From Bacteroidales bacterium (GTDB lineage: Bacteria > Bacteroidota > Bacteroidia > Bacteroidales > UBA932), in contig JAQWAL010000012.1 in assembly GCA_028707695.1 (NCBI GenBank), positions 10,321 to 43,360 on the forward strand: DNA of 33,040 nucleotides, in the 5' to 3' direction. The translations under genes were made by a program, and so were the position numbers. The notes below the pieces were generated by a model. The model was not told the origin of the DNA. It made no database searches and saw nothing but the letters and a program-made list of their open reading frames with translations. Shown here piece after piece: positions 24,544 to 30,234 of this stretch (the first letter of the stretch is position 1; the number at the start of each line of letters is the position of its first letter).

Positions 24544-24573
24544 TTTGCAGATTTAAAAAAATTCATAACTTCG
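24544..24573 (+). promoter_or_regulatory. Bacteroidota-type promoter of the leu operon
   Basis: TTTG (24544-24547), 18-base spacer and TAACTTCG (24566-24573), one mismatch to TAnnTTTG. The spacing equals that of the TPR operon promoter at 7986. The box ends 7 bases before the ATG of the leader peptide, so the transcript would begin at or within a few bases of the start codon. Confidence 0.6.
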
Positions 24574-24580
24574 CACCATT

Positions 24581-24655
24581 ATGAGAAGACAACATTTCCT
24601 ATTATCACTAAACCTGCTGGGTCTGATGGCACCGGACAGGGTAGTTTGTGTATAG
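24581..24655 (+). CDS. leuL: Leucine-rich leader peptide of the leu operon attenuator
   Basis: A 24-codon open frame, ATG to TAG, with six leucine codons packed in residues 7-15 ([10 protein letters not shown] segment: CTA, TTA, CTA, CTG, CTG, CTG). It precedes an alternative pair of RNA hairpins and leuA. Such a peptide serves as a sensor: ribosomes stall on the Leu codons when charged leucyl-tRNA is scarce. The gene symbol is by analogy with enterobacterial leuL; the sequence itself is not homologous. Confidence 0.8.
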
Positions 24656-24690
24656 GAAACAGAGAAATAATATTATATGCAGGCTGCCCT
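24638..24690 (+). promoter_or_regulatory. Antiterminator hairpin of the leu attenuator
   Basis: Bases 24638-24655 can pair without interruption with 24673-24690 (18 bp, including six G-U pairs; 17-base loop). The 5' arm holds the last codons and the stop of the leader peptide, and the 3' arm contains the whole 5' arm of the terminator (24682-24688), so the two structures exclude each other. A ribosome stalled on the Leu codons (24599-24625) would leave the 5' arm free; one at the stop codon would cover it. Confidence 0.7.
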
Positions 24691-24709
24691 TTAAAGGCGG
24701 CCTTTTTTT
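24682..24709 (+). terminator. Rho-independent terminator of the leu attenuator
   Basis: GGCTGCC (24682-24688) pairs with GGCGGCC (24696-24702) in a 7-bp G+C-rich stem (one G-U) with a 7-base loop, followed at once by seven T (24703-24709). It lies 20 bases before the leuA ATG and would stop transcription when leucyl-tRNA is plentiful. Confidence 0.85.
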
Positions 24710-24729
24710 ATTTACAAACCGTAACAAAA

Positions 24730-26223
24730 ATGGAAAAACTTCATGTATTTGACACAACGCTCAGGGACGGCGAACAAGTCCCAGGTTGCCAACTGAATAC
24801 AATAGAAAAAATAGAACTTGCAAAAGCCCTGGAACAACTGGGTGTAGATATTATAGAGTGCGGCTTCCCTATCTCCAGCCCCGGAGATTTCAATTCGATA
24901 GTAGAGATCTCAAAGGTGGTGAACGACTCCGTTATATGCGCCCTTACCAGGGCTGTGGAGAAGGACATTGATGTTGCAGCAGATGCACTCCATTTTGCAA
25001 AAAGGAAAAGGATACATACAGGAATAGGCACTTCCGATTTCCATATCCTGCATAAATTCCGCTCCAACCAGGATGATATTTTGCAAAGGGCTGTCAATTG
25101 CGTCAAATATGCCCGCAGGTATTGCGACGATGTGGAGTTTTATGCAGAAGATGCCGGACGGACCAACAACGAATACCTGGCCAGGGTAATAGAAGCAGTA
25201 ATTGCGGCAGGGGCAACCGTTGTGAATATCCCCGACACCACAGGCTATTGCACACCCTTTGAGTACGGAGAGAAAATCGCATTTTTGCGCAACAATGTAC
25301 CAAACATAGACAAGGCCATAATCTCTACCCACTGCCACAACGACCTGGGAATGGCAACCGCCAACACAATTGCCGGAATAATGAACGGAGCAAGGCAGGC
25401 AGAGGTTACCATAAACGGAATAGGAGAAAGGGCAGGCAATACAGCCCTGGAAGAGGTTGTCATGGCGGCCAAATGCCGCAAAGACATTCCTGTTTTCACA
25501 AATATCAACACCACCCTGCTGGCAAAGACATCCCGCCTTGTCTCTACTTTGATGCGTATGCCTGTGCAACCAAACAAAGCAATAGTAGGCAGGAACGCAT
25601 TTGCCCACTCCTCCGGGATACACCAGGACGGGGTACTCAAGAACCGTGAGAGCTATGAGATAATGGATCCTTCAGAGGTTGGAGTTAACGAAAGCACGAT
25701 TGCACTTACTGCCCGCAGCGGAAGGGCTGCACTAAACCACCATTACAAACGGCTGGGGATGGAGTTAAGTGCTCAGGAGATGGACGATGCTTATGACAAG
25801 TTCCTTAAACTGGCAGATGTGAAGAAAGAGATCAACGACGAAGATTTGATGGTGATTGCCGGAGTAACCCGCTCCAAACAAAACCAAAGGATACGCCTAA
25901 AGTTCCTGCAGGTAGTATGTGGCAAGGGTTCGGTTCCCATGGCCACACTCAAACTTGTGATTGACGGCGAAGTATGTTGCGCCACCAGCAGCGGCAACGG
26001 ACCTATTGATGCAGCATTCAGTGCAGTAAAGACTCTTATACACCGCAAGTTTACCTTGGAAGAGTTTTTAGTGCAGGCAATTACCCGCGGAAGCGACGAT
26101 GTGGGCAAGGTTCATATACAAATAGAAAACAAAGGGAACATCTATTACGGGTTCTCTGCAAACACAGATATTGTGACTGCTGCAGTGGAAGCCCTTGTAA
26201 ATGCAATCTCAAAGATAATTTGA
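24730..26223 (+). CDS. leuA: 2-isopropylmalate synthase
   Basis: Condenses acetyl-CoA with 2-oxoisovalerate, the committed step of leucine synthesis. The 497-residue protein has the HMGL-like TIM barrel with [14 protein letters not shown] (9-22), [15 protein letters not shown] carrying metal-binding His residues, and [40 protein letters not shown] and the C-terminal LeuA dimer domain (about residue 365 onward), the site of leucine feedback in the family, are complete. ATG 24730 gives the canonical [16 protein letters not shown] start; the frame is open back to 24646 through the terminator. Controlled by the upstream attenuator. Confidence 0.95.
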
Positions 26224-26228
26224 CAAAA

Positions 26229-27608
26229 ATGGCAAAAACAATATTCGATAAAATCTGGGAGAGGCATGTGGTAAAGCAGATTCACGATGGACCCTCTGTC
26301 CTTTACATAGACCGGCACTTCATTCACGAGGTAACCAGTCCACAGGCATTTGCCGGGCTGGATAAAAGAGGTCTCAAAGTATTCCGTCCTTTGCAAACCT
26401 TTGCAACATGTGACCACAACGTGCCTACCCAAAACCAGCACCTCCCCATAGAAGACCCCTCCTCACGTATCCCGGTGGAGCAACTCGCCAAAAACACAAA
26501 GGCACATGGGATCAAATATTTCCCGCTTGGCCATCCCGGGAACGGTATAGTGCATATAATAGGACCAGAGCAGGGAATCACCCAATGTGGCATGACAATA
26601 GTATGTGGCGACAGCCATACCTCTACCCACGGGGCATTCGGCAACATTGCCTTTGGGATTGGTACCAGCGAGGTAGAGATGGTACTTGCAACCCAAACAC
26701 TTATGCAAACCAAACCCAAACAGATGCTGATAGAGGTAAACGGATCTCTTGGCAAAGGTGTGTGTTCCAAGGATTTGATTCTGCATATAATCTCCTCTTT
26801 GGGAAGTTCAGGAGGAACAGGGTATTTCCTGGAATTTGCAGGCAGCACAATTGAAGCTCTTGGCATGGAAGAACGCATGACAATTTGCAACATGAGCATA
26901 GAGATGGGGGCCCGTGGCGGGTTGATCGCCCCGGATCAAAAAACCTTTGACTACCTGAATGGGAGGAAATACTCCCCCAAAGGCTCAGTATGGGATAATG
27001 CGGTTTCTTCCTGGAGGTTACTCAAAAGTGATGCAGGCTGTAGTTACGATGTTGTGCACAGTTTTGATGCATCCAGTGTGGAGCCTATGGTAACATACGG
27101 GACCAATCCCGGGGCAGCAATTGCTGTAAACAAAACTATCCCATCTGTTGCAGGAGAGGAAAAAGCACTGGCATACATGGGTTTTAAAGCGGGTGAGAAA
27201 ATTTGTGATTTGAAAATTGATTATGTTTTTGTGGGGAGCTGCACAAATGGCAGGATAGAGGATTTCCGTCTGTTTGCCAATGCTGTAAAAGGGAAGCATA
27301 AACATCCCGATGTGGTTGCTTGGCTGGTACCCGGATCCAAAGAGGTAGAAAGGCAAATCCATGACCAAGGGATTTTTGATATCCTTGACCAGGCGGGGTT
27401 TGAGCTGAGGCAGCCGGGATGCTCTGCATGCCTTGGTATGAACCAAGACAAGATTCCGGAAGGAAAATATTCCCTCTCTACTTCAAACCGCAATTTCGAG
27501 GGCAGGCAGGGACCGGGGGCGCGAACAATCCTTGCCGGGCCATTGGTTGCCGCTGCAGCTGCAATCACCGGACAAATCACAGACCCACGCACATATTTCA
27601 AATTATAA
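26229..27608 (+). CDS. leuC: 3-isopropylmalate dehydratase large subunit
   Basis: With LeuD, isomerises 2- to 3-isopropylmalate. The 459-residue aconitase-family subunit has the [13 protein letters not shown] block and the three 4Fe-4S ligands Cys338 (GSCTNGR), Cys398 and Cys401 ([11 protein letters not shown]). ATG 26229 is used because it is 5 bases after the leuA stop; a TTG at 26220 would overlap leuA. Third-party aconitases are distinguished by the LeuC-type N-terminus [12 protein letters not shown]. Confidence 0.96.
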
Positions 27609-27641: not shown

Positions 27642-28244
27642 ATGAGTTCAAAAAAAATCACTGTAATTGAATCTGCCGCAGTACTGATGCCGGCAGAGAA
27701 CATTGACACCGACCAGATAATCCCCGCCCGTTTTTTAAAGACCACTTCCCGCGAAGGCTTTGGTGCCAATCTTTTCCACGACTTGCGGTACAATCCTTCG
27801 GGAGAACCAAACAATGAATTTGTGCTGAACACCCATGAGGGTGGCTGCAAAATACTGGTGGCAGGGCACAACTTTGGATGTGGATCCAGCCGGGAACATG
27901 CAGCCTGGGCTTTGAGCGATTATGGATTCATTGCTATTGTATCTAGCTTCTTTGCCGATATATTCCGCAACAATGCATTGAACAACGGACTTTTGCCTGT
28001 CCAGGTAAGTGAGCAGTTCCTGGAAAGGATTTTCAAAGAGTGCTCTTTGGACAAAACCTCAACATTAAAAATAGACCTTATGAAAAAAGAGATTGAAATT
28101 ACCACGACCAAAGAAAAGCAGAGTTTCCAGATTAACTCCTACAAACAAGAGTGCCTTATAAAGGGGTTCGACGACATCGACTACCTGCTGGACAATCTGG
28201 ATGCAATTGAAAAATACGAGCAATACAGGGTTTCTGCTTATTGA
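27642..28244 (+). CDS. leuD: 3-isopropylmalate dehydratase small subunit
   Basis: The swivel-domain partner of LeuC, 200 residues, full length. ENIDTDQIIPARFLK (17-31) and GHNFGCGSSREHAAWAL, the substrate-binding loop, are present. It starts 33 bases after leuC and is followed by a 90-base spacer before leuB. Confidence 0.96.
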   Translation: MSSKKITVIESAAVLMPAENIDTDQIIPARFLKTTSREGFGANLFHDLRYNPSGEPNNEFVLNTHEGGCKILVAGHNFGCGSSREHAAWALSDYGFIAIVSSFFADIFRNNALNNGLLPVQVSEQFLERIFKECSLDKTSTLKIDLMKKEIEITTTKEKQSFQINSYKQECLIKGFDDIDYLLDNLDAIEKYEQYRVSAY

Positions 28245-28334: not shown

Positions 28335-29426
28335 ATGCAAAAACAAATTGCTGTTTTACCTGGTGACGGTATCGGGCCCGAAATCACGGCAGAGGCGGTG
28401 AAATGCCTAAAGGCTGTTGCCGGTAAATTCGAACATCAATTCAAATTCGAATATGGGTTGGTTGGTGCTGCCGCAATAGAAAAAACCGGAGAACCATATC
28501 CATTGGAAACCCATCAATTGTGCCTTAGGTCAGATGCCGTATTGTTCGGGGCTATAGGCGACCCCAAATATGACAACAACCCCTCTGCCAAAGTACGTCC
28601 AGAACAAGGGCTTCTAAAGATGCGGCAAGATTTGGGCCTGTTTGCAAATATCCGCCCAGTAGAGCTTTTCCCCTCCCTCTCTGCCCGTTCCCCTCTCAAA
28701 CCAGAGAGGATCAAAGGGGTCAGCCTGACGGTGGTAAGGGAACTTACAGGTGGTATTTATTTTGGCGAACCTAGAGGGCGCAACCAGGAGGGCAATGTTG
28801 CATTTGACACTTGTTTGTACAGCATTGCAGAGATCGAGCGGATTTCACGTGTGGCATTCAAGATAGCCCTGGACACTTTTGCAACTGGGGAACGACTGGC
28901 AGCAAACCCCAAAGTAACCCTGGTTGACAAGGCTAACGTGCTTGCAACCTCCAGGTTGTGGAGAGAAGTGGTAACCCGGCTCCATGCAGAGGAGTTTCCA
29001 GAGGTGACACTCGAATTCATGTTTGTGGATAATGCTGCCATGCAACTTGTAACCGCTCCTGCCAACTTCCACGTGATTCTTACCGAAAACATGTTCGGGG
29101 ACATATTGAGCGATGAGGCAAGTGTGCTCACAGGTTCCATAGGGCTATTACCCTCTGCCTCCTATGGGGCCAATGTACAATTGTTTGAACCCATACACGG
29201 ATCATTTCCTCAGGCAGCCGGGAAAAACATTGCAAACCCGTTGGCCACAATACTATCTGCTGCAATGATGTTGCAAAATGCATTTTCGATGGACAAGGAG
29301 GCTGCAGCTTTAAAAAAATGTTGCATTACCGCCATAGAGAACAATATTTTGACGGAAGATTTGGGGGGAACCTGCACCACTTCCCATGTGGGAGATTACA
29401 TCTCTCGGCAGTTGGAAGATTACTAA
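28335..29426 (+). CDS. leuB: 3-isopropylmalate dehydrogenase
   Basis: NAD-dependent oxidative decarboxylation of 3-isopropylmalate to 2-oxoisocaproate, the last dedicated leucine step before transamination. The 363-residue protein has the N-terminal VLPGDGIGPEI, VLFGAIGDPKYD, LLKMRQDLGLFANIRP, GGIYFGEPRGR, VDNAAMQLV and NMFGDILSDEAS with the metal-binding Asp residues, and LFEPIHGSFPQAAGKNIANPLA, the NAD-binding block. It completes the leuACDB operon; no clear terminator follows. Confidence 0.96.
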   Translation: MQKQIAVLPGDGIGPEITAEAVKCLKAVAGKFEHQFKFEYGLVGAAAIEKTGEPYPLETHQLCLRSDAVLFGAIGDPKYDNNPSAKVRPEQGLLKMRQDLGLFANIRPVELFPSLSARSPLKPERIKGVSLTVVRELTGGIYFGEPRGRNQEGNVAFDTCLYSIAEIERISRVAFKIALDTFATGERLAANPKVTLVDKANVLATSRLWREVVTRLHAEEFPEVTLEFMFVDNAAMQLVTAPANFHVILTENMFGDILSDEASVLTGSIGLLPSASYGANVQLFEPIHGSFPQAAGKNIANPLATILSAAMMLQNAFSMDKEAAALKKCCITAIENNILTEDLGGTCTTSHVGDYISRQLEDY

Positions 29427-29451
29427 TTTTAAGTTTTATTCACCATTTTCA

Positions 29452-29459
29452 TATCTTTG
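29452..29459 (+). promoter_or_regulatory. Candidate -7 box for the small membrane protein gene
   Basis: TATCTTTG matches TAnnTTTG and lies 67 bases before the ATG at 29527. No strong TTTG lies at the expected distance upstream. The leader between is AT-rich with a short direct repeat of CAATTTA. Confidence 0.4.
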
Positions 29460-29526
29460 CAAACTTCCCAAAAGACAATTTACAATTTACAATATAGCAA
29501 ATTATCATTTATCAAAAGGAAAAACA

Positions 29527-30234
29527 ATGGCAGCAGATACAAAACAAACAAAGAGATTCATTTTTGGCACACCTATCTGGATTGGGACATTGGCTATCAT
29601 TGCCCTCTTTTTGCTCTTGCCCGCCACCAAAAACATGTTTTTATCGGCAACTGCATCACATCCATATCTAATGGGGTTTGTGAAATTTGCAATTCTCTCG
29701 ATTATGGGCGAGTTCCTGGCAAAACGTATAGTCACCGGACAATGGCAAATGGTTGAGGGAGTGCTGCCCAAAATGTTTGTATGGGGAGTTCTTGGAGTTG
29801 CAATAGTGCTCATGTTTGCACTATACACAGGCGGTGTAGACAGTGCTTCTGCCTCGGGTTTGCTTTATACGGGATATCCCGATATTAAGATCTTGCGTGC
29901 ATTTTATATCTCTGCAATCATGAACCTTACCTTTGGTCCGGTATTCATGGCAGCACACCGCATTACCGATACTTGGATTGATTCCAGGGTCAATGCAAAA
30001 AAAAGGAAGAGTGTAGAAACAGTAACGGAAAATCAAATGCCTTCATTGGGTCAGGTGGTATCTTCCATAGATTGGCCCGGCTTCGTGAAATTCGTGGTAG
30101 GAAAGACCATTCCTTTGTTTTGGATTCCGGCACACACAATCACATTCCTGCTTCCCGACCAATACAAGGTTATTTTTGCCGCATCACTCTCGATTGTGTT
30201 GGGGCTTATACTCTCAATTGCAAAAAACAGATAA
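29527..30234 (+). CDS. Small integral membrane protein, possibly Mpv17/PMP22-like
   Basis: A 235-residue protein with about four to five hydrophobic segments (near 17-33, 45-63, 78-98, 118-140 and 205-232). By eye it resembles the Mpv17/PMP22 family: SHPYLMGFVKFAILSIMGE near the second segment recalls the family's HP...GD block, and the C-terminal FWIPAHTITFLLPDQYKVI recalls its WP..Q..NF..VP motif. This is a tentative resemblance and the function is not known. The frame is open upstream to 29386 inside leuB, but ATG 29527 is preceded by an A-rich AAAGGAAAAACA and a candidate promoter. Convergent with the hydrolase gene, with a 60-base gap lacking a clear terminator. Confidence 0.65.
   Translation: MAADTKQTKRFIFGTPIWIGTLAIIALFLLLPATKNMFLSATASHPYLMGFVKFAILSIMGEFLAKRIVTGQWQMVEGVLPKMFVWGVLGVAIVLMFALYTGGVDSASASGLLYTGYPDIKILRAFYISAIMNLTFGPVFMAAHRITDTWIDSRVNAKKRKSVETVTENQMPSLGQVVSSIDWPGFVKFVVGKTIPLFWIPAHTITFLLPDQYKVIFAASLSIVLGLILSIAKNR

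Follow-up and report, generated by a model that had tools for sequence, protein, structure and literature searches.

The leuACDB operon of this Bacteroidales genome is very probably preceded by a classical ribosome-mediated transcription attenuator, in which the supply of charged leucyl-tRNA would set transcription of leuACDB. This reading was built on the sequence, predicted folds, a modelled switch and conservation, and it is supported by a codon cluster, a predicted terminator, an antiterminator and a protector helix at fitting spacings. The promoter and start site, leader translation, termination and leucine response are all inferred. Leader-peptide attenuation is textbook knowledge for the leu, his and trp leaders of enterobacteria. 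The mechanism is rarely described in the bacterial group studied here, and the conserved element is absent from Rfam. In the window (the whole stretch of 33,040 nt that was analysed), the leader and operon comprise the following features:

24581..24655, + strand, leader peptide ORF of 24 codons with stop codon TAG at 24653-24655, from the sequence; a Leu-rich counterpart occurs in 15/15 LeuA-bearing genomes of the genus
24595..24659, + strand, predicted 1:2 (protector) hairpin between the Leu-codon segment and the 5′ arm of the antiterminator, in the MFE structure of the full leader
24599..24625, + strand, control-codon cluster, six Leu codons in nine, from codon reading; modelled terminator probability 0.00 at codons 8-16
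24638..24690, + strand, predicted 2:3 antiterminator, 18-bp helix 24638-24655/24673-24690, from RNAfold
24681..24709, + strand, 3:4 intrinsic terminator in the predicted fold, 8-bp stem 24681-24688/24696-24703 and T7 at 24703-24709
24730..26223, + strand, leuA, 2-isopropylmalate synthase (TIGR00973, 659.1 bits, cut-off 598.7)
26229..27608, + strand, leuC (TIGR00170, 617.4 bits, cut-off 560.25)
27642..28244, + strand, leuD (TIGR00171, 183.8 bits, cut-off 116.25)
28335..29426, + strand, leuB (TIGR00169, 446.7 bits, cut-off 353.2)

The leader frame and its predicted helices

An earlier note on this DNA had described a 24-codon leader with six Leu codons in nine, and rereading of the sequence showed its coordinates to be right. 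The Leu codons are codons 7 (CTA), 8 (TTA), 10 (CTA), 12 (CTG), 13 (CTG) and 15 (CTG), so that the short leader ORF carries a cluster of codons for the operon's own product, as is expected of an attenuator. Also as described in the note, 12 bases separate the end of the last Leu codon (24625) from the antiterminator 5′ arm (24638), and the stop codon of the leader falls inside that arm (24638-24655). The operon downstream had been named leuACDB, and all four genes scored above the cut-offs of curated models. An in-frame TTG at 24646 offers leuA an alternative start that would lengthen the gene across the terminator (24646-24729); it is a possible source of leuA starts annotated too far upstream, which annotation tools may overcall, and annotators gain an element that Rfam does not hold. 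An ORF located 3′ of leuB (29386-30234) had no NCBIfam match at E <= 0.001 and showed hydrophobic stretches when inspected by eye.

When 24638-24709 was folded with RNAfold, the 18-bp helix proposed in the note was returned exactly, at -23.2 kcal/mol, and 1/200 shuffles was as good. The antiterminator piece without the terminator 3′ arm (24638-24692) gave a z-score of -5.5 with 0/200 shuffles as good, and the terminator alone was modestly better than shuffles (z -1.9, 11/200 as good). The run of seven T claimed for the terminator was found, but the stem was one pair longer in the predicted fold than the 7 bp that had been claimed. The entire 129-nt leader folded at -40.0 kcal/mol (z -3.2, 0/200 shuffles as good). 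The 1:2 hairpin is a third helix that was absent from the note; its pairs were present in the MFE structures of 17/17 leaders, with 8-16 pairs in each (15 leaders of the genus together with L003 and L009). The 5′ arm of the terminator is common to the terminator and the antiterminator, and with the 1:2 helix the predicted folds have the arrangement of an attenuator, with an intrinsic terminator predicted between the leader and the first structural gene. Folding with and without the upstream part flipped the predicted structure between terminator and antiterminator, as had been proposed.

In the proposed mechanism, transcription would start a few nucleotides before the leader ATG, and the first ribosome would load on a nearly leaderless message. 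When leucyl-tRNA is short, the ribosome would stall at codons 8-15 and cover segment 1, leaving segment 2 (24638-24655) free; pairing of segment 2 with segment 3 (24673-24690) would then prevent the terminator from forming, and leuACDB would be transcribed. When leucyl-tRNA is plentiful, the ribosome would reach the stop codon inside segment 2, the 3:4 helix would form and transcription would end at the T run. Without a translating ribosome on the leader, the 1:2 helix would form and the terminator would again be allowed.

The switch was modelled with the leading edge of the ribosome 13 nt past the first base of the A-site codon, and the equilibrium probability of the terminator was computed for the RNA ahead. 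For the window, this probability was 0.97 without a ribosome, 0.70 with the A site at codon 7, 0.00 at codons 8-16 and 0.93-0.97 from codon 17 to the stop codon. In this equilibrium model, a ribosome stalled at the control codons of the window frees segment 2 and a ribosome at the stop codon masks it. Across the 17 leaders, the probability averaged 0.92 when no ribosome was present, 0.68 for Leu codons and 0.96 for the stop codon. The value at the stop codon exceeded the Leu-codon mean in 15/17 leaders and the value without a ribosome did so in 16/17; for L119, the value without a ribosome was 0.29. In 7/17 leaders, at least one Leu codon brought the probability under 0.5; in 10/17, none did. 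These ten leaders would either depend on an antiterminator that forms ahead of the terminator during transcription or have a weaker switch.

Recurrence of the leader and competing explanations

LeuA was found in 15 of the 25 genomes of the genus, the window's own included, and 10/25 had no match at E <= 0.001. A Leu-rich leader followed by a terminator was present in every one of the 15 LeuA-bearing genomes. As the note had anticipated for close relatives, the Leu-rich frame and both helices recurred with changing sequence, although the modelled switch was weak in the ten leaders described above. In the window's family, a LeuA match was absent from 246/398 genomes at E <= 1e-150, a cut that misses broken genes; leucine auxotrophy may be frequent in this family, although several of the genomes are incomplete.

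The antiterminator was predicted in 17/17 leaders, beat shuffles at p<0.05 in 12 of them and not in the other five, and its 5′ arm began 0-20 nt (median 12) past the last Leu codon. A MAFFT alignment of the 17 leader tails left the helices out of register, and no pairs were counted on it; the pairing energy of each arm with its own terminator was therefore compared with that after random reassignment. Own pairings averaged -17.75 kcal/mol compared to -13.85 kcal/mol (sd 0.71) for reassigned ones, and 0/10,000 permutations were as good (p about 1e-4). The same type of result was obtained with 12 less redundant leaders and with 40 leaders of other groups, the latter including one identical pair (L031 and L128). 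Relatedness was crudely controlled, with near-duplicates dropped in one of these three tests, and L099, L103, L075 and L079 were left out because of their odd geometry. Antiterminator arms change together with their own terminator across leaders. In the other groups, the antiterminator on its own beat shuffles at p<0.05 in 13/40 leaders.

Leu-rich short frames can arise by chance in 33 kb. Six Leu codons in nine occurred in 2/396 short ORFs of the window, and at least one such frame was present in 12/50 shuffled windows, so a Leu-rich short ORF alone is not rare; its combination with a terminator directly before leuA exceeds chance. This was seen in a screen of 165 leuA upstream regions. Of these, 161 contained no N; genomes of the same family supplied 83 and named public contigs 78. 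The screen asked for a frame with six or more branched-chain residues in 12 and with 3 Leu in a stretch of 12, and for a terminator no more than 150 nt away. It omitted 12 loci without a usable LeuA start and the upstreams with N (L019, L020, L033 and L042), took in three upstreams below 500 nt (L074, L082 and L108) and counted one sequence twice (L031 and L128). It passed 68/161 leuA upstreams (34/83 same-family and 34/78 named contigs), compared to 2/1610 dinucleotide shuffles and 0/446 upstreams of other ORFs from the same loci, these controls being ORFs called mechanically on either strand with a minimum of 150 residues, some of which are perhaps not genes. With a stricter threshold of at least seven branched-chain residues in 12, 57/161 leuA upstreams passed and neither the 1610 shuffles nor the 446 controls did. 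The window's cluster, with six branched-chain residues in 12, passes the looser screen and fails the stricter one. By the screen criteria, the pair of leader and terminator was not found in 93/161 leuA upstreams.

The chance frames leave room for a constitutive terminator, either the end of an upstream transcript or that of an sRNA, lying behind a fortuitous Leu-rich frame. We consider this very improbable given that leader and terminator precede leuA throughout the LeuA-bearing genomes of the genus and none of the control ORFs, and that the arms change together; in addition, a constitutive terminator directly 5′ of leuA would be expected to silence the gene unless a second promoter followed.

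The leader could also be an attenuator that senses something other than leucyl-tRNA, such as a general slowdown of translation or arrest by the nascent peptide. Arrest-based leader regulation exists in other systems, and Ile is also present in the leaders of several relatives. In the genus, however, the peptide varies outside the cluster while the Leu cluster is kept, and CTA, which is rare in the genes of the window (46/887 Leu codons in 23 genes), is frequent in the leaders (25/90). The leader count covers 14 of the 15 genus leaders, L122 being left out, with near relatives counted apart. Codon differences between close leaders were too few to show selection on leucine. The variable peptide, the kept cluster and the CTA frequency fit codon reading better than a peptide motif, and we regard sensing of another signal as improbable.

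Control of the terminator by a T-box or a metabolite-binding riboswitch rather than by a ribosome appears the least probable of these alternatives, and we give it hardly any credence. T-boxes and riboswitches likewise use competing terminators, but none of the 4227 Rfam models, among them leader, T-box and Bacteroid-trp families, matched the window at the gathering score. With E up to 10, there were 14 matches in the window, each far below its gathering score and none of them a T-box; the sole amino-acid leader among them was Phe_leader (14.8 bits compared to a gathering score of 55). In 20 related loci, nothing beyond two 5S rRNA matches reached the gathering score. The stretch from leader to terminator is also short and weakly conserved, with a mean column identity of 54% over the 17 leaders. 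Leucine-codon reading by a ribosome remains the preferred explanation.

A putative promoter close to the leader start codon

Bacteroidota-type promoter boxes, which the note had not mentioned, are located upstream of the leader:

24544..24547, + strand, putative -33 promoter element TTTG, from the sequence; consensus TTTG/TAnnTTTG (PMC7366714)
24566..24573, + strand, putative -7 promoter element TAACTTCG, with its end 7 nt upstream of the leader ATG

In Bacteroides thetaiotaomicron, the promoter element with the consensus TTTG/TAnnTTTG is centred at -7, and about 3.7% of 5′ UTRs have a length below 10 nt (PMC7366714). Within the genus, a TAnnTTYG box lies 8 nt before the leader ATG in 13/15 genomes and 7 nt before it in one, that of the window; the fifteenth genome, L120, has TAACTTAG at 7 nt. 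The box is also 8 nt before the ATG in L003 and L009. An element centred at -7 and a distance of 7-8 nt from box to ATG would place the start about 0-5 nt before the ATG, and the leader message of the genus should be nearly leaderless. In other groups, a box was found within 45 nt of the leader ATG in 32/44 leaders, at 18-28 nt in 26 of these and at 10 nt or less in two, with each ATG chosen by a script and perhaps not the real start in every case. A sigma-70 promoter scan gave no site at the leader on its strand; the phylum uses another promoter type. The near-leaderless start is the least ordinary feature of the leader. As a variant it would be new for this phylum, but its principle would not be new.

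Among the closest known systems is the attenuator of the enterobacterial leu leader (leuL), which we take to be Rfam Leu_leader RF00512. As in leuL, a Leu-rich peptide with rare CTA codons, the 1:2, 2:3 and 3:4 helices and an intrinsic terminator precede leuA; unlike leuL, the window gave no covariance match at the gathering score, and its leader has a predicted nearly leaderless start and a Bacteroidota-type promoter. Attenuator leader messages that begin at the start codon have been reported for trpL of Sinorhizobium meliloti (PMC7298713) and for the ilvB leader of Corynebacterium diphtheriae (PMC5784534). These belong to other phyla and concern other amino acids, and their start sites were determined, whereas the start proposed here comes from the promoter box. 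The literature matches listed included no leaderless-leader attenuator in Bacteroidota.

Within the phylum, strong clues for leader-peptide attenuation upstream of amino-acid operons have been described in Flavobacterium psychrophilum (PMC9723704), and short ORFs in long 5′ UTRs, reminiscent of leader peptides, in B. thetaiotaomicron (PMC7366714); the portions of these two papers available to us contain no leuA case and no helix analysis. Bacteroid-trp RNA (RF01692), a cis-regulatory candidate RNA of Bacteroidetes (Table 1 of PMC2864571), is named for trp and had no match in the window. The actinobacterial LEU element is a leader with a Leu-codon run before leuA, and it differs from the leader studied here, as far as the available part of its description goes, in a conserved pseudoknot whose base stem is formed by the leucine codons and the Shine-Dalgarno box of leuA (PMC1262725). 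A survey from 2010, in its available part, gave leader-peptide systems as known only in Proteobacteria and Actinobacteria, apart from an atypical ermC leader, until it added a case of its own from Firmicutes (PMC2965389). No recognisable study of a leuA attenuator in Bacteroidota was among the literature matches listed, and comparative work naming Bacteroidetes may exist.

Isoleucine codons and leaders elsewhere

In the window's genus, the leader cluster is mainly leucine. Ile and Leu are mixed in other leaders, one of which, from Bacteroides gallinarum (L084), contains MIQNFTYILLCGIIILLAKFSGSEYCA. The Ile content was compared with the presence of a second LeuA-like gene downstream, which was sought by tblastn in the loci and with a citramalate-synthase model over 34 genomes. 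The latter gave no match at its cut-off; the second gene is perhaps a citramalate synthase. The comparison took in 46/61 leaders, the other 15 being duplicates or leaders whose operon could not be assessed (L039, L048, L053, L075, L079, L124, L127, L128, L130, L144, L146, L147, L157, L169 and L174). The densest 14 residues held 2-6 Ile in the 24 loci with a second gene; in the 22 loci without one, they held 0-3 Ile in 21 and 7 in one. With kinship ignored, the difference gave a Mann-Whitney p of 4e-7, and of 0.0015 without the window's genus, the latter with eight values for loci without a second gene, including a zero for L005 that was read by eye.

L035 was a clear exception, with 7 Ile in the densest 14 residues and a single LeuA-like gene in its genome, and L111, L112, L114 and L121 each had 3 Ile without a second LeuA-like gene. 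Two pairs of loci may also count against the association, namely L075 and L079, with 4 and 3 Ile and without a second gene in the 3 kb examined, and L124 and L127, which have 5 and 4 Ile and lay outside the second-gene search. Judged from these sequences, the association of leader Ile with a second LeuA-like gene in the operon is a tendency and not a rule. In two Salinivirgaceae MAGs (L099 and L103), the leaders end in RSLLLSLSLSLRLRRR and RSLLLLLSLRLRRR, with a dense part that holds Leu without Ile, and each genome has two LeuA-like genes on different contigs.

A broader reading, to which we give slightly less than an even chance, is that, in the genus, the leader on which the sensing ribosome loads is essentially leaderless (5′ UTR predicted at 0-5 nt, spacing fixed at 7-8 nt) and that the sensor is re-specified with the operon across Bacteroidales, with Ile and Leu codons where the operon contains a second LeuA-like gene, perhaps a citramalate synthase gene, and mainly Leu codons otherwise.

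Attenuation by ribosome position requires a ribosome close behind RNA polymerase, and Bacteroidota largely do without Shine-Dalgarno initiation. The named loci with leader and terminator before leuA (34/78) are nearly all labelled Bacteroidota. An attenuator that is intact across the genus, together with a leader and terminator in these loci, suggests that translation and transcription are coupled in these bacteria, on leader messages at least.

Leaders were also observed before other amino-acid genes. All four genomes inspected at hisG, those of the window (L182) and of three congeners (L183-L185), have upstream of this gene a leader of 29 codons that includes four consecutive His (MNLYSNIHSVHHHHLRLNGRRDLLCVYSG in the genome of the window), as well as a strong terminator-like stem with a T run. 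Upstream of ilvD, a frame of between 41 and 59 codons with many Ile, Leu and Val residues was present in the window's genome (L181; 58 codons) and in L178-L180, but a terminator-like stem with a T run was clear only in the former. Leaders at hisG and ilvD in the same genome make a lone chance leader before leuA less likely. The N-terminal domain of anthranilate synthase had no match in 4/4 genomes searched, so the trp operon could not be compared. Finally, two MAGs labelled Lentisphaeria/Lentisphaerae (L075 and L079) carry a leuA that is 67% identical to that of the window. About 430 to 80 nt before this gene, inspection by eye revealed two tandem branched-chain-rich leaders, with a terminator-like stem and T run behind each of them; these are possibly two attenuators in series.
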